DNA from: a virus
IMG/VR virus record: IMGVR_UViG_3300042938_000870
Span: 1 to 22,130 of that record
Direction: 5' to 3' (one strand)
DNA: 22,130 nucleotides
The position numbers and the translations under genes are program-made. Shown piece after piece: positions 138 through 21,819 of this stretch. Position 1 is the first letter of the stretch; every line of letters begins with the position of its first letter. A model generated the notes under the pieces. That model was given only the letters and a program-made list of their open reading frames with translations. It was not told the origin of the DNA and searched no databases.

Positions 138-1346
138 ATGTCGAACAAACGCAAGCCAAGTAAGCCGCTGAAGAAGCGAAGTGAATCTAGGGCGATTCTC
201 TGGAATTCAAATAGCCCGTGGGCTAGAACCGGCTACGGTGCGCAGACTGCGCAAACGATTACGAGACTGCAAGCAGCGGGGCATCATGTCGCTGTCTCTT
301 CTAATTATGGTTTAGAGGGAACTACCCTTGATTGGCATGGAGTTAGGCAGTATCCGCGCGGATTCGATATGCACTCCAATGATGTTGTGGTAGCGAACTA
401 TCACGCTTGGAGGCATGAGCACTCAGGCCTAGATCCTCTGCTCATCACTCTTTACGATGTCTACATCTTCAAGGGTTCTCAGTGGGACGACGTAGAACAG
501 ATAGCGTCATGGGTTCCTATCGATCATTCGCCGGTTCCTCCAGATGTTGCGGCCTGGTGCAAGCGCCCGAACGTTACTCCTATAGCGATGAGCCGCTTTG
601 GTGAAGCGATGCTCAATAACGCTGACATTGAATGTCTCTATGTTCCGCACGCTATTGAAAAGATCTTCAAGCCTACTGAGTCCATTAACGCAGGCGGTAA
701 GGATCTCACCGGGCGCGAGTTCATGGGTATTGCTGAAGATCGTTTCGTATTCGGAATGGTCAGCGCGAACAAAGGCGCTTACCCTCCTCGCAAGGCTTTT
801 CCTGAAACCTTCCTAGCTTTCTCTATGTTCGCTAAGCATCATGAAGATGCAGTGCTCTACATCCATACGGAGGATCGCGGAGGTATGGGAGGAATCAACC
901 TGCGCGAGCTTGCTGCCGCGTGCGGGATTCCTGATCATCAAATCGTGTTCGTTGATCAGTACGTTTATCGCTCAGGTATCGGTAATGATCTCCTCGCTGC
1001 GATCTACAGCGCTATGGATACGTTGCTCATTTGTTCTATGGGCGAAGGGTTCGGTGTTCCTCAGATTGAGGCGCAGGCCTGCGGAACTCCGGTCATCTGC
1101 ACGAATGCGAGCGCATCTCCTGAGCTTCTCGGCGATGGCTGGCTAGTGGAGGGGCAACCGTTTTGGGATTCTCCGCAGCGCGCTTGGATGATCACGCCTG
1201 GCGTTCCTTCCATCATTGAAGCGATGGAAGCGGCTTACGCTCGGGGCCGTGGGAGATCTCAGGTAGCGCAAGACTTCGTGGCGCAGTACGGCGCGGATTT
1301 CGTCTTTGATAATTATTGGTTGCCAGCGATGGAGGCTCTGCGGTGA
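138..1346 (+). CDS. Glycosyltransferase, GT4-like (group 1)
   Basis: Probably transfers a sugar from a nucleotide-sugar donor to a phage protein or host glycan. The protein has 402 residues with a basic N-terminus, a glycine-containing loop (TGYG, residues 31-34) where GT-B enzymes bind the donor or acceptor, and a C-terminal Rossmann half with the E-x7-E pattern at E303 and E311 (EGFGVPQIE), the signature of retaining GT4 enzymes, followed by ACGTPVICT. The ATG has a GAAAGGA ribosome binding site. Its last bases overlap the next glycosyltransferase gene, so the two are probably translated together. The class is well supported; the sugar and acceptor cannot be read from the sequence. Confidence 0.85.
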   Translation: MSNKRKPSKPLKKRSESRAILWNSNSPWARTGYGAQTAQTITRLQAAGHHVAVSSNYGLEGTTLDWHGVRQYPRGFDMHSNDVVVANYHAWRHEHSGLDPLLITLYDVYIFKGSQWDDVEQIASWVPIDHSPVPPDVAAWCKRPNVTPIAMSRFGEAMLNNADIECLYVPHAIEKIFKPTESINAGGKDLTGREFMGIAEDRFVFGMVSANKGAYPPRKAFPETFLAFSMFAKHHEDAVLYIHTEDRGGMGGINLRELAAACGIPDHQIVFVDQYVYRSGIGNDLLAAIYSAMDTLLICSMGEGFGVPQIEAQACGTPVICTNASASPELLGDGWLVEGQPFWDSPQRAWMITPGVPSIIEAMEAAYARGRGRSQVAQDFVAQYGADFVFDNYWLPAMEALR

Positions 1347-11007: not shown

Positions 11008-11223
11008 CTAATCGTCTTGCGAGGCTCTCAGATTGTCTGCAATCGCCGCTGAGATGTACTTATGGAGCGTCATGCGGCTAATCCCGGCAATATAAGAGAG
11101 CTGCTTAATGTTCATTCCTTCTTTATGCGCTTGGACGCATTCAGCGATGAGATCTGAGAAAGCCGCTCGCTGCTCGGCTAGTGCTGCCTGATGCCTGCTT
11201 GCTGCTACTTCTAGGCTGTTCAC
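11008..11223 (-). CDS. Small HTH DNA-binding protein
   Basis: A 71-residue protein beginning at GTG (11223-11221) that overlaps the stop of the PrimPol gene (GTGA). The C-terminal half contains a helix-turn-helix (MNIKQLSYIAGISRMTLHKYI, about residues 37-57), preceded by a helical, coiled-coil-like N-terminus (EVAASRHQAALAEQRAAF). It is likely a small regulator or DNA-binding factor; target unknown. It ends the minus-strand transcript next to the bidirectional terminator. Confidence 0.65.
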   Translation of the reverse strand: MNSLEVAASRHQAALAEQRAAFSDLIAECVQAHKEGMNIKQLSYIAGISRMTLHKYISAAIADNLRASQDD

Positions 11224-11681
11224 TTCAGCACCAAACTCGCGAGGCTGGCAGGTAGCGCGATTGGCTCCATGCCATCCATCTCGTGATAGGCGATCCCGTC
11301 AGGATGAATGCTCGGGGGAGCAACAACGTAGCCGTTGTATTTGATGTCGATTCCATCACCGAGCTTCCCGCGAACGGGGCCTAGTTGCTCGGTGCGGTAG
11401 TAGAGGTGGAATCCGTCAGCGGTTCCTACTGTGTGCGTTGCTGGCAGAGATCCCACTAGCGCGAGATCTGGCCCGTTCCTATGGTCAACGTCAATGATGA
11501 TGAGTCCAGATGGAGCGCAGGCTATGCCGATGTTCCCACCATCAGGCCAAGAATCAATGATGTTGTGATCAGTCGTCGCACTCTTGTAACCGCTCGGCGC
11601 GTAACGCGGGTTCGGCTGCTTTGAGTGTGGCGCGAGCGGGAAGACAAGCCATCCGCGCTCTGCGTAGGTATGTGCGTTCAT
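11220..11681 (-). CDS. Stand-alone PrimPol (AEP) domain protein
   Basis: A 153-residue protein with the bifunctional DNA primase/polymerase N-terminal domain (PF09250 type). Motif I is the two acidic residues D64 and D66 (GLIIIDVDHRNG), motif II is H92 (GFHLYYR), and motif III lies around D112 (GDGIDIKYNGYVVAPPSIHPDG). These residues form the metal and nucleotide site of archaeo-eukaryotic primases. In most phages this domain is fused to a helicase; here it is alone and no helicase partner is seen in the window. The start is supported by the CTAGGGAGGAA site upstream. It might prime replication or act in repair, but this is not proved. Confidence 0.75.
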   Translation of the reverse strand: MNAHTYAERGWLVFPLAPHSKQPNPRYAPSGYKSATTDHNIIDSWPDGGNIGIACAPSGLIIIDVDHRNGPDLALVGSLPATHTVGTADGFHLYYRTEQLGPVRGKLGDGIDIKYNGYVVAPPSIHPDGIAYHEMDGMEPIALPASLASLVLK

Positions 11682-12600: not shown

Positions 12601-12675
12601 GTGCAATGGTTCATGCTCATTGAATTAATCGCCTGCGCGGTTCTGCTGACGCTCGCGGCGCGTGGCAATGGCTAA
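12601..12675 (+). CDS. Hydrophobic mini-ORF leading into the WhiB gene
   Basis: A GTG (12601), or the in-frame ATG at 12613, opens a 24- or 20-codon frame with one clear membrane-type helix (MLIELIACAVLLTLAARGNG). It ends in TAA at 12673-12675, overlapping the start of the WhiB gene. No good ribosome site precedes it. It may be a small membrane protein or a translational leader for WhiB. Support is limited to the hydrophobic pattern and the overlap. Confidence 0.35.
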   Translation: MQWFMLIELIACAVLLTLAARGNG

Positions 12676-12913
12676 GTTAAAAGATCTTTGGATAGAGCAA
12701 GCCGCCTGCGTAGGTACTGACCCTGAAATTTGGTTCACGGCAGATCCTGCATCCTTTGAATATTGCGTAGCCGTGTCGATCTGCAAGCGCTGCGAGGTTC
12801 GCAGGCCTTGCTATCAAAGTGCCATAGATCGGCGCGAGCATTACGGGATTTGGGGAGGAATTGATTTCACTACCCTTGACCGAAGACGCAGAAAAGCCCC
12901 GGCTAATTTCTAG
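12662..12913 (+). CDS. WhiB-family Fe-S transcription factor
   Basis: An 83-residue protein (start GTG 12662; ATG 12668 is an alternative two residues later). Cysteines at 16, 41, 44 and 50 (C-x24-C-x2-C-x5-C) would hold a [4Fe-4S] cluster; an extra Cys is at 35. The GIWGGID turn motif and the basic tail (RRRRKAP) follow, as in WhiB proteins that bind sigma factor and DNA. WhiB genes occur in Actinobacteria and their phages, so this is the best host clue. Its stop codon lies within the terminator hairpin. Phage WhiB proteins can alter host transcription; that role is inferred. Confidence 0.9.
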   Translation: MAMAKLKDLWIEQAACVGTDPEIWFTADPASFEYCVAVSICKRCEVRRPCYQSAIDRREHYGIWGGIDFTTLDRRRRKAPANF

Positions 12914-18028: not shown

Positions 18029-18064
18029 GTGGCCCTCGCCTGTCGGAGGATCGGCGAGGGCCAC
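18029..18064 (+). terminator. Terminator-like hairpin after the methyltransferase
   Basis: A perfect 12-bp inverted repeat, GTGGCCCTCGCC (18029-18040) and GGCGAGGGCCAC (18053-18064), with a 12-nt loop, seven bases after the methyltransferase stop. No T run follows. It separates the recombination/methylase block from the replication block. Confidence 0.7.
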
Positions 18065-18241: not shown

Positions 18242-19123
18242 ATGGTCCCTCACTGGATCATGCGGCACGAGAAGATCACCGGCAACGCGCTTCGGCTCTA
18301 TCTCCAGCTTCGCTCATATGCAGGTTCCAAAGAGATCGCCTGGCCGAGCAAGAAGAGGCTAGCGACGGATCTTCATTTGTCGGCTCCGACAGTGGAGGGT
18401 TCTCTGCTGATTCTGCGAGACATCGGATGCATCGAGATAACGTCCCGATTCCATTCTGACGGTAGGCAGACGTCAAACCTCTACCGCGTTCTCTGGGAAG
18501 AGCCGAACACAATATTTTTTGGTGGCCCCCTAGAAAAGTTGGATGGGGACCCCCCAAATAACTTAGATGGGGACCCCCCAGAAAACTTGGATGGGGACCC
18601 CCCAAGAAAGTTGGGTACGAACTTATACCTAGAAGAACTTAGACAAAGTGAACCTAGACCTATTGAACCTATACATGCCAAACCGCGAGAGAAATCAAAA
18701 CTAGATCTCTACTTTGATGAGTTTTGGTCTTGCTACCCAAGACGCTCAGGGAAGATCAAAGCAAAAGACGCATTTAGGAAAGCAAGCAAGGAGTGCGATC
18801 CTTCAGAGATCATCGCTGGAGCGCAGGCCTTCGCTGATGATCCAAACCGGCAGGAGGAATTCACTCCTCATCCGGCTACTTGGCTGAATCAGGGACGTTG
18901 GGAAGATGACCCGCTCCCCGAGCGAGGAAGCGCTCAGTTGAGCAAGACAGAAGTGAATGACAACTACCTATCCAAGCTTGATCGACAGATTGAGCAATAC
19001 GAGAAGGAGAGACTAGATGCAGCTTCCAGAGGCGAAAGCATTATTGACTTCGGTGAATGGACTCGACGCCAGGATTCCGGTGAGTCCAGATCGCATCAAG
19101 GAATGGGCAGCAATGCTTACTGA
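18242..19123 (+). CDS. Replication initiator-like protein (wHTH + DnaT-like domain)
   Basis: A 293-residue protein with an N-terminal winged helix (NALRLYLQLRSYAGSKEIAWPSKKRLATDLHLSAPTVEGSLLILRDIGCIE), an 8-residue LDGDPP repeat, a flexible charged stretch and a C-terminal domain (YFDEFWSCYPRRSGK ... HPATWLNQGRWED) typical of phage replication proteins related to lambda O or primosomal DnaT-like proteins. It should bind the origin and recruit the helicase loader. ATG 18242 is the first standard start but lacks a good ribosome site. The coding sequence carries two sets of direct repeats that look like an origin. Its end overlaps the next gene by 107 nt. Confidence 0.8.
   Translation: MVPHWIMRHEKITGNALRLYLQLRSYAGSKEIAWPSKKRLATDLHLSAPTVEGSLLILRDIGCIEITSRFHSDGRQTSNLYRVLWEEPNTIFFGGPLEKLDGDPPNNLDGDPPENLDGDPPRKLGTNLYLEELRQSEPRPIEPIHAKPREKSKLDLYFDEFWSCYPRRSGKIKAKDAFRKASKECDPSEIIAGAQAFADDPNRQEEFTPHPATWLNQGRWEDDPLPERGSAQLSKTEVNDNYLSKLDRQIEQYEKERLDAASRGESIIDFGEWTRRQDSGESRSHQGMGSNAY
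18539..18610 (+). repeat. Three 24-bp direct repeats within the initiator gene
   Basis: Units 18539-18562, 18563-18586 and 18587-18610 each begin TT(G/A)GATGGGGACCCCCC and differ mainly in the last bases; a degenerate half unit precedes (18521-18538). Each holds an imperfect GGGG-A-CCCC dyad. They encode LDGDPPxx three times. In frame and between two protein domains, they resemble initiator iterons. Confidence 0.7.
18619..18674 (+). repeat. Four 10-bp direct repeats GAACYTAKAC (iteron-like)
   Basis: Copies start at 18619, 18635, 18650 and 18665, spaced 16, 15 and 15 bp. All fit GAAC(T/C)TA(T/G)AC. They lie directly after the 24-bp repeats in a clearly AT-richer stretch (18611-18710). The constant spacing suggests a binding array, the codons being a by-product. 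Confidence 0.6.
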
Positions 19124-19658
19124 GAAGGCAAGCGGCTTGACACTTGCAGACGCTCGGCAGATCTCAAGAGATCATTACGCGGAGACTTCAAACGTCCTGA
19201 CGCTGGATATCCTCATTGCCGCTCATCGACGGCAGCGCAAGGTGAAAGAAAGCCTGAGCCGGTCTGAGATCGCCTCGCAGCCGAAGCGAGTACCGATGCC
19301 GGAATGGTTCAGGGCAGCCGTGTACGACATGGGCAAGCCGCAGCCGGGAAAGGACGGCGAGCCGATGACGATCGGGCAGATCTTCGCAGGCGCTTCAGTG
19401 TTCGCGAAGCAGACGACAGCGGATGATCCTCAGGATGCTCATTGCTTCCGCAGCGGCTGCAACTGCTCGCATGAGACTTGCTACCGTGGCTGGATTGACA
19501 GCGATACGGAAACCTCCCCCTGTCGGCAGTGCAGGCCTGGGCTCGCGTTGGTGCTCGATGAGGTCGCGCCGCTCGGGGAGAGGAATCCTCACGATCAGCA
19601 GTTGCTGGAATCGATCGAGCATCGGCGGGAATTGCTCGGATGGAGTGGAGTGAAGTGA
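19017..19658 (+). CDS. Putative helicase loader/replication accessory protein
   Basis: The ATG at 19017 has GAAGGAGA at 19002-19009 and lies 107 nt inside the end of the initiator gene in another frame. The 213-residue protein has a helical N-terminal part (VSPDRIKEWAAMLTEKASGLTLADARQISRDHYAETSNVLTLDILIAAHRRQRK) that resembles actinophage proteins encoded after replication initiators, and a Cys-rich C-terminal segment (CFRSGCNCSHETCYRGW ... CRQCRPG) that may bind zinc. Since conserved N-terminal features begin in the overlap, the long overlap is probably real. ATG 19109 would be the alternative. Loader function is inferred from position. Confidence 0.6.
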   Translation: MQLPEAKALLTSVNGLDARIPVSPDRIKEWAAMLTEKASGLTLADARQISRDHYAETSNVLTLDILIAAHRRQRKVKESLSRSEIASQPKRVPMPEWFRAAVYDMGKPQPGKDGEPMTIGQIFAGASVFAKQTTADDPQDAHCFRSGCNCSHETCYRGWIDSDTETSPCRQCRPGLALVLDEVAPLGERNPHDQQLLESIEHRRELLGWSGVK

Positions 19659-19885: not shown

Positions 19886-20695
19886 ATGAAACACATTGTG
19901 ATGTTTTCCGGTGGCATAGGTAGTTGGGCAACCGCTAAGCGAGTGAAGGAACGATACCCATCAGAGGAAATGATCTTGCTGTTCTCAGATGTGCAAGGAA
20001 GCAAGCAAGAGCACATAGGAGAAGACGAAGACACTTATCGCTTCATTGAAGATGCAGCAGCTAACGTCGGCGCTGATCTTGTGACCGTGAAGGATGGCCG
20101 GGATATCTGGAAAGTGTTCAAAGACAAAAGATTCCTAGGGAACTCGCGTCTTGCTTCATGCTCTCATGAACTGAAACAGAAACCTGCGAGAGCGTGGCTA
20201 GAGGAACATACGAAGCCTGAAACCAGCATCGTTTATGTTGGGATCGACTGGAGCGAATCGCACCGGGTCGCAAGCATTGAGCGGAACTATTTACCTTGGA
20301 TCGCTAAAGCGCCGATGACGGAAGCGCCATATCTGACAAAAACTCAGATGATCAAATGGGCAGAATCGCAGGGCCTTAAGCCGCCTCGCCTTTACTCGCT
20401 TGGGTTCTCCCATAACAACTGCGGGGGAGGTTGTGTGCGCGCTGGACAGGGCCAGTTCAAGCATTTGCTAGATGTGATGCCTGAGCGTTTCGCAGTGTGG
20501 GAACAGAAGGAAGCTGAGATGAGCGAATTCCTAGGCAAGGATGTTTCGATCCTGAAGGAGAGCGTTAACGGTGATGTGAGAGCCTTAACGTTAAAGGATC
20601 TTCGGCTAAGGCATGAGATGCAACCATCACTGATTGACGTTCTAGATATCGGCGGCTGCGGTTGCTTCGTTGAAGATGAATCAGTTAATGACTAG
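19886..20695 (+). CDS. PP-loop ATPase-like protein (PAPS reductase family)
   Basis: A 269-residue protein starting with a PP-loop, FSGGIGSWATA (S8-S13), the ATP-binding signature of adenine nucleotide alpha-hydrolases (PAPS reductase, QueC, DndC and thiouridylases). Later it has GIDWSESHR and a Cys-containing segment (FSHNNCGGGCVRAGQGQF) and a C-terminal GGCGCF, which may hold metal or sulfur. Its place just before a queuosine-precursor transporter and DpdA suggests a nucleobase-modifying reaction, but PP-loop proteins of this kind occur widely in actinophages and the substrate cannot be told from sequence. AGAGGAT precedes the ATG. Confidence 0.75.
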   Translation: MKHIVMFSGGIGSWATAKRVKERYPSEEMILLFSDVQGSKQEHIGEDEDTYRFIEDAAANVGADLVTVKDGRDIWKVFKDKRFLGNSRLASCSHELKQKPARAWLEEHTKPETSIVYVGIDWSESHRVASIERNYLPWIAKAPMTEAPYLTKTQMIKWAESQGLKPPRLYSLGFSHNNCGGGCVRAGQGQFKHLLDVMPERFAVWEQKEAEMSEFLGKDVSILKESVNGDVRALTLKDLRLRHEMQPSLIDVLDIGGCGCFVEDESVND

Positions 20696-20707: not shown

Positions 20708-21193
20708 ATGAAGAAAACAGTTTGGTTGCTCGCCTATATAGGTTCAATTGTTCTAGCAAACATCTGCACAACACAATTCGGGCTAGTGCCTATCGGATTC
20801 GGATTGATGGTTACTGCTGGAACCTTTGCTGCTGGCTTCGCTCTCATCGCTCGCGATGCGGTGCAAGTATCAGCGGGGAAGATAGTTGTCTTACTTGCGA
20901 TCATTGCAGGAGCAGCAATCTCGGCAATCACAAGTAATCCAACAATCGCTTTAGCATCCGGCATTGCATTTCTAGTATCAGAATTAATTGATTTCGCAGT
21001 TTTCACTCCACTAAAGGAAAAGAGTCTTGCCCGAGCTGTTGTCATTTCGTCCGTAGTGAGCGCACCCGTTGACACGGTTCTTTTTCTCTACCTCGCTGGC
21101 TTCGGTATTACATGGCAAGCGGTCTTGGGACAGTTCATCATTAAGACTGCGCTAGCACTCATCGCAGCAATCATCATCACTGCCAAGCGATGA
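20708..21193 (+). CDS. Queuosine precursor transporter (VUT/YhhQ family)
   Basis: A 161-residue membrane protein with about six hydrophobic helices. The segments SIVLANICTTQFGLVPIGFG and AGTFAAGFALIARDAVQ are characteristic of the VUT family, whose bacterial member YhhQ imports preQ0 and preQ1. It would bring 7-deazaguanine precursors into the infected cell for the DpdA-like enzyme encoded next. The CTAGGGAGGAA site precedes the ATG; the stop overlaps the dpdA start (ATGA), so the two are coupled. Confidence 0.85.
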   Translation: MKKTVWLLAYIGSIVLANICTTQFGLVPIGFGLMVTAGTFAAGFALIARDAVQVSAGKIVVLLAIIAGAAISAITSNPTIALASGIAFLVSELIDFAVFTPLKEKSLARAVVISSVVSAPVDTVLFLYLAGFGITWQAVLGQFIIKTALALIAAIIITAKR

Positions 21194-21819
21194 TCTATCT
21201 AGTTGGCAACCGCGTTGCAGGGACAGAGGATCTCCTTAATAATCAAGGCATCGGACTAATGAACACTCCTAAGAGTGGTTATCGCATAGAGCCTGGCTGG
21301 ATATGGGCTGCTGATAATGGATGCTTCGGGAAGGGTTATCCCGGCGATGAAGCTTGGCTGTCTTGGCTTCAAAGATTCAACGCAGAACAAAAGGCATCCT
21401 GCCTTTTCGTTACTGCTCCTGATGTCGTTGGCAATTCCAGAGAGTCGTTAGCAAGATCGCTTCCATTTTTGCCAATCATTAAAGATCTTGAGTACCCGGT
21501 GGCATTAGTAACGCAAGATGGAATGCATCCGGATGATGTCCCTTGGCAGCAAATAGATTGGCTGTTCATCGGTGGGACAGATGATCACAAATTAGGCGAT
21601 GAAGCCAAACGACTTATCAGCGCGGCAAAGGATCATAAGAAGATGGTTCACGTTGGCAGAGTCAATTCACAGAAACGATTCCTAGCCTTTGCAGCTCTTG
21701 GAGCGGATAGCGTTGATGGAACTTTTCTAGGGTTCGGGCCTGAAGTGAATTTGCCTAAATTGCTCGGATGGATCAGGCATCATGCAGATCATGCGCCGCT
21801 GTTTGAATTAGCGAAGTGA
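21190..21819 (+). CDS. dpdA: DpdA-like DNA-guanine transglycosylase
   Basis: A 209-residue protein related to the TGT/DpdA family, which swaps guanine for a 7-deazaguanine base in DNA. Visible family segments: WAADNGCFGK, FVTAPDVVGNSRESLARSLPFLP, VALVTQDGM, LFIGGTDDHKLG, VHVGRVNSQKRFLAFAALGADSVDGTFLGFGP. The conserved Asp of ADNGCF, the DGM and the DSVDGTF loop fit the active-site acids. The protein is much shorter than tRNA TGT, like the compact phage DpdA forms, and the usual Cys zinc site is not seen. Linked to a preQ transporter, it indicates modified phage DNA. Confidence 0.85.
   Translation: MIYLVGNRVAGTEDLLNNQGIGLMNTPKSGYRIEPGWIWAADNGCFGKGYPGDEAWLSWLQRFNAEQKASCLFVTAPDVVGNSRESLARSLPFLPIIKDLEYPVALVTQDGMHPDDVPWQQIDWLFIGGTDDHKLGDEAKRLISAAKDHKKMVHVGRVNSQKRFLAFAALGADSVDGTFLGFGPEVNLPKLLGWIRHHADHAPLFELAK

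Follow-up and report, generated by a model that had tools for sequence, protein, structure and literature searches.

The origin of phage lambda lies in gene O, where iterons with G/C runs (spaced 20, 24, and 23 bp) occupy the linker-coding part and are followed by an A-rich unwinding tract. Work on a lambdoid Stx phage showed that plasmids no longer replicate once the iterons are altered without changing the protein, and that O can bind without the AT-rich tract but unwinding requires it (PMC7466680). The initiators of TP901-1 and Tuc2009 bind direct repeats in their own genes that act as ori (reviewed in PMC8965321). SPP1 oriL, in gene 38, combines direct repeats with an AT-rich DNA unwinding element (DUE), and initiation there also needs the helicase loader gp39 (PMC6316719). 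The origin boxes of pSK41 (RepA_N) lie in linker-coding rep DNA, between a winged-helix N-terminal domain and a separate C-terminal domain; in a pPR9 hybrid, a PF13730 N-terminal domain plus origin replaced the RepA_N equivalent as a unit of roughly 500 bp, and the plasmid replicated (PMC5703833). In RK2 and F, the initiators TrfA and RepE, respectively, recognize repeated DUE elements as single-stranded DNA and bind just one of the two strands (PMC4081077).

We analyzed a 22,130-bp virus record (IMG/VR IMGVR_UViG_3300042938_000870), termed here the window, with an initiator ORF of 293 amino acids. As in lambda gene O, iterons lie in the part of this ORF between two protein domains and adjoin an AT-rich tract. 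We believe it highly probable that positions 18521 to 18718 are a theta-type replication origin that sits within the phage's own initiator gene, in the DNA coding for the linker, with iterons bound by the winged helix, a repeat-structured tract that is unwound, and a C-terminal domain that acts in recruitment. An origin of the lambda plan inside the initiator gene had been proposed in a sequence-only reading of this DNA; it is still the best reading, on the grounds of protein family, conservation at the DNA level, the stability minimum, position in relatives, and the known systems. It is thus a well-supported origin of a known type.

The initiator gene and its predicted domains

The features are as follows.

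18242 to 19123, plus strand: replication initiator gene (phrog_270 and PF13730)
18242 to 18505, plus strand: N-terminal winged helix, amino acids 1 to 88, predicted iteron-binding domain (HTH_36; AlphaFold2 pLDDT about 95)
18509 to 18691, plus strand: region coding for a disordered linker (AlphaFold2 pLDDT), holding the entire putative origin
18521 to 18544, plus strand: 24-bp repeat copy 1, degenerate, GGTGGCCCCCTAGAAAAGTTGGAT (Tandem Repeats Finder [TRF]; read directly from the sequence)
18545 to 18568, plus strand: 24-bp putative iteron copy 2, GGGGACCCCCCA core (TRF; core search)
18569 to 18592, plus strand: 24-bp putative iteron copy 3 (TRF; core search)
18593 to 18616, plus strand: 24-bp putative iteron copy 4 (TRF; core search)
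18615 to 18718, no strand: predicted DNA unwinding element (nearest-neighbor stability profile)
18619 to 18628, plus strand: family 2 repeat 1, GAACTTATAC, exact GAACYTAKAC
18635 to 18644, plus strand: family 2 repeat 2, GAACTTAGAC, exact GAACYTAKAC
18650 to 18659, plus strand: family 2 repeat 3, GAACCTAGAC, exact GAACYTAKAC
18665 to 18674, plus strand: family 2 repeat 4, GAACCTATAC, exact GAACYTAKAC
18695 to 18925, plus strand: C-terminal helical domain (FxxFWxxYPRR ... HPATWLNQGRWEDD), predicted to recruit the replisome (kept across relatives; AlphaFold2 pLDDT 96 to 98)
19017 to 19658, plus strand: overlapping downstream gene in the helicase-loader position, a candidate loader (weak phrog_6055 and phrog_8924 matches)

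The protein matched the phrog_270 "replication initiation protein" profile over amino acids 1 to 256 (E 1.1e-35). HTH_36 (PF13730; E 5.8e-7, 29.7 bits against a Pfam gathering cutoff of 25) was the sole Pfam match above cutoff in the initiator, and RepA_N (PF06970) was not found even at an E value of 10. The N-terminal half alone matched the O-like PHROGs 678 and 391 (E about 2e-5). RepA_N-type initiators (4pt7 and 4pql, Z 10.6) and a Rep-DNA complex (5kbj, Z 9.4) were among the top structural matches of the modeled winged helix, a likeness to RepA_N-type initiators that is suggestive and tied with generic winged helices. No close relatives of the N-terminal domain were found in IMG/VR, which we counted against the origin reading.

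AlphaFold2 gave confident models for amino acids 1 to 88 and for a helical segment at about 152 to 228, joined by a low-confidence linker at about 90 to 148 (pLDDT about 44 to 53 at amino acids 91 to 140 and 68 at 141 to 150). Both repeat families are encoded wholly inside this linker, so their proposed position between the winged helix and the C-terminal domain was borne out. The C-terminal domain (FWxxYPRR...WLNQGRWEDD) is common to the initiator and its relatives. Foldseek returned no match to its fold at an E value of 0.001 or below. The lambda P loader (DnaB complex 9oa1) was the best VIA-align row at Z 4.7, which is too weak, and we rejected this likeness.

The known systems resemble the window in layout and differ from it in protein parts. 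A profile of the window-type C-terminal domain found nothing in lambda O, and a homologous P-interacting domain was not recovered. Since this domain is not shared, the window protein would work like lambda O without being a member of its family. The lambda iterons also differ in sequence from those of the window, and a repeat search found no array in the lambda A-rich tract. The pSK41 layout matches, but the window protein lacks a RepA_N domain and the two C-terminal domains have no recognized relation. Lactococcal phage P335 shares the C-terminal domain (E 2.4e-18) and carries repeats in its linker, whereas TP901-1 has another C-terminal domain, annotated as DnaD-like, and unrelated repeat sequences. 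SPP1 gene 38, likened here from its published description, has repeats and a DUE inside the initiator gene, the layout proposed for the window.

Two repeat families and the least stable DNA of the window

TRF reported an array at 18526 to 18614 (period 24, 3.7 copies) that, with a score of 122, ranked first among 11 rows in the window. Its 13-bp core, TGGGGACCCCCCA, has three exact copies, at 18544, 18568, and 18592; a search of the window that tolerated two mismatches gave no further copy (0.26 expected). The array had been described as three 24-bp repeats at 18539 to 18610; the array itself holds, but it comprises four copies at 18521 to 18616, the first of which is degenerate and had been missed. 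The exact iteron gave only five single matches in IMG/VR. The second family, reported as four GAACYTAKAC repeats spaced 16, 15, and 15 bp at 18619 to 18674, was recovered as claimed, with exact copies at 18619, 18635, 18650, and 18665.

Family 1 encodes the peptide repeat LDGDPP, and the linker is disordered. The repeats could therefore have no function in the DNA, having arisen incidentally by slippage that the linker tolerates or being a repeat kept at the protein level. We compared both families with shuffles that kept the protein sequence by exchanging synonymous codons and with shuffles of codon order. The family 1 score was reached in 0 of 2,000 shuffles of either kind; the family 2 score was reached in 1 of 2,000 synonymous shuffles and in 0 of 2,000 codon-order shuffles. 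Because both families exceed the synonymous shuffles, they are features of the DNA. Consistent with this, the proline codon CCC, rare in sampled genes (14 of 166 proline codons), recurs in the repeats. Copy 1 of family 2, at its spacing of 16, is out of frame with copies 2 to 4; thus, family 2 is not a peptide repeat.

In the stability profile of all 22,130 bp, the 60-bp minimum falls at 18615 to 18674 and covers hardly more than the family 2 array; the 100-bp minimum falls at 18619 to 18718. The earlier description of an AT-richer stretch had understated this, as the tract is the stability minimum of the whole window. A low-stability DUE adjoining the repeats is what is expected of an iteron-type origin, and the relatives described below provide comparative support. 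Cumulative skew had been suggested as a check. GC skew rises monotonically throughout the window with no minimum at 18.6 kb, and AT skew is featureless there as an origin marker; on a 22-kb fragment this check was uninformative, and we listed it among the points against the origin reading. DnaA boxes were absent from the window, which we also counted against the origin reading, and they were not enriched in the linkers of relatives (0.08 versus 0.09 per kb). Single DnaA boxes (TTATCCACA, TTGTCCACA, and TTTTCCACA) occur in three Arthrobacter-phage loci (L015 at 3413, L165 at 713, and L166 at 720), each lying in the linker on the 3' side of the second motif.

From this arrangement, we propose that the winged helix would bind the 24-bp iterons, which might lie on one face of the DNA because they are about two helical turns apart. 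The resulting nucleoprotein complex would strain and then open the adjoining AT-rich repeat tract. The opened tract would be held single stranded, possibly through strand-specific contact with the GAACYTAKAC repeats, and the C-terminal domain would then recruit the helicase or its loader. The single-strand DUE binding of RK2 and F is a possible model, by analogy, for the role of family 2. The RK2 and F initiators belong to another family with two winged helices, and their origins lie outside the initiator gene.

The same sites might instead serve autoregulation or partition rather than replication initiation. By binding within its own gene, a winged-helix protein could act as a repressor of that gene, and iteron systems also use initiator-binding sites for control. 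However, the sites are in the middle of the gene, away from a promoter position, and such a role leaves the adjoining DUE-like tract unexplained. We consider it highly unlikely, as systems of the same layout are proven origins (lambda/Stx, PMC7466680; TP901-1 and Tuc2009, PMC8965321; SPP1, PMC6316719; pSK41, PMC5703833).

Repeat layout among relatives sharing the C-terminal domain

We collected 109 nonredundant genes with the shared C-terminal domain from IMG/VR, annotated phages, and GTDB genomes and scored tandem repeats in the 120 nucleotides 5' of that domain. The mean score was 16.3, compared to 9.7 for synonymous and 6.7 for codon-order shuffles. In this segment, 83% of relatives beat all 40 codon-order shuffles and 56% beat all 40 synonymous shuffles; the C-terminal domain, used as its own control, beat them in 4 to 6%. 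Directly 5' of the C-terminal domain, 69% of the 109 relatives scored at least 12. Windows drawn at random from other ORFs did so in 0.7% of cases and hydrophilic windows taken from other genes in 5.8%; more than half of these hydrophilic positives were initiators missed by our filter, lambda O among them. Comparable linkers elsewhere carried strong tandem arrays in about 2 to 6% of cases.

Repeats with a period of 20 to 25 bp (mostly 22 to 24) were present in 59 of 109 relatives and those of 6 to 16 bp in 91. Both classes occurred in 50, and in 43 of these 50 the longer-period family was upstream, the same order as in the window. Neither class reached threshold in nine relatives, a further point against the origin reading. 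The comparison of repeats across related phages, named beforehand as a check, therefore supports the origin reading, since the layout is kept in most of them. The view that two repeat families in tandem are unusual did not survive, as this is a common layout in the relatives and was already known from RK2 oriV and F oriS, which pair iterons with shorter DUE repeats (PMC4081077).

These data also bear on slippage. Among strong proximal arrays, 35 of 75 had a period not divisible by 3, and slippage of single units cannot spread such an array without shifting the reading frame. Most hydrophilic linkers of a comparable kind in other genes have no such arrays, and, as described below, GAACTTAGA is kept across reading frames. 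We regard an origin of the repeats by slippage or by selection on the peptide as extremely improbable.

The linker end of the relatives is on average a local stability minimum. In 50% of relatives, a 60-mer near the linker end ranked among the least stable 1% of its locus, compared to 8% for random segments. Adenine at the third codon position was enriched in the last 90 nucleotides of the linker (odds ratio 1.57, z 9.4, matched for amino acid and gene). At the place of family 2, relatives carry unrelated, often simple, A-rich units. Two 6-mers were enriched in these DUE tracts, TAGAAC at 17 loci (4.2 expected) and AGAACC at 25 (11.0 expected), with shared ancestry left in the counts; for this reason, we do not claim a universal 6-mer of all DUE tracts.

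A repeat-structured unwinding tract 5' of the conserved C-terminal domain is nonetheless common across unrelated N-domain groups, with 14 of 21 clusters without detectable mutual similarity having a median score of at least 12. A statement of this two-tier layout as a rule across these initiators was not found in the open-license literature searched, and it may be a useful new observation, perhaps for specialists. The layout offers a simple rule for finding origins in many uncharacterized phage and prophage genomes, and the relatives make up a large natural data set on how initiators read DUE repeats.

Motif conservation, the N-terminal domain, and neighboring genes

The initiators of Arthrobacter phages Bolt007, Klevey, Prairie, Bumble, and Altadena are about 34% identical in protein sequence to that of the window. 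All five carry poly-C iterons spaced 24 bp, and those of Altadena share GGGGACCCCCC with the window. Immediately 3' of these iterons is GAACTTAGA or a near copy, in two reading frames, and in Klevey and Prairie it is present twice, 17 bp apart. In the four Arthrobacter phages compared, the iteron/GAACTTAGA block is 80 to 84% identical, compared to 45 to 53% for the rest of the linker.

The persistence of GAACTTAGA resembles that of a specific recognition motif, and the four 10-mers of the window are well kept at a distance of 15 to 16 bp. Both would fit an arrangement in which the 24-bp repeats are initiator iterons and family 2 is a double-stranded site for another phage or host protein, outside the melting element. 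The family 2 array, however, coincides exactly with the stability minimum of the window, and the unrelated A-rich units, raised synonymous A, and stability minimum of the relatives fit melting better. We therefore consider a site for another protein unlikely and favor family 2 as part of the unwinding tract.

Repeated 7-mers were common to 36 to 37% of pairs with closely alike N-terminal domains and to about 1% of pairs with alike C-terminal and unlike N-terminal domains. At the sequence level, the repeated motifs thus track the N-terminal and not the C-terminal domain, which fits a cognate pair of N-terminal domain and iteron. This association could be plain linkage, because the linker adjoins the N-terminal domain. 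As a tentative possibility, leaning toward doubtful, family 2 would be a sequence-specific single-strand element, a counterpart of the RK2 13-mers or the DnaA-trio, in a large class of phage initiators; the short units would change with the N-terminal domain, and winged helix, iterons, and DUE repeats would move between phages as one specificity cassette. The initiator at L002 4419 to 5411 has the same C-terminal domain (70% identity) and an unrelated N-terminal domain; its iterons (CCCTAGGGGA) also differ, and it carries GGAACAA repeated with a 7-bp period. Judged by its sequence, it is a natural cassette swap.

The candidate loader gene downstream of the initiator gave nothing in a Pfam search. 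Its phrog_6055 and phrog_8924 matches are common to a gene of Gordonia phage Cafasso that lies between the initiator and a DnaB-like helicase, and the Bolt007 gene at the same position is annotated "helicase loader." A WhiB-like regulator at 12662 to 12913 (plus strand; phrog_472, E 4e-16) points to an actinobacterial host, and the candidate origin is thus placed in an uncultivated, probably actinobacterial phage.

Scans for tRNAs and Rfam families gave no matches in the window. Between the methyltransferase gene and the initiator gene, a perfect 12-bp inverted repeat (GTGGCCCTCGCC / GGCGAGGGCCAC) with a 12-nucleotide loop lies at 18029 to 18064 and is not followed by a T-run. On the strand opposite the initiator are a stand-alone Prim-Pol domain of 153 amino acids without a helicase part (11220 to 11681; PF09250, E 1.4e-30) and, after it, a small ORF (11008 to 11223). 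Downstream of the initiator, a plus-strand cluster contains a PAPS-reductase-like gene (19886 to 20695; phrog_424), a gene for a small hydrophobic, membrane-like protein (20708 to 21193; phrog_4899), and a gene for a phrog_15826 protein (21190 to 21819). A glycosyltransferase-like gene (138 to 1346, plus strand; phrog_2170, E 5.4e-32) lies upstream of the structural genes.
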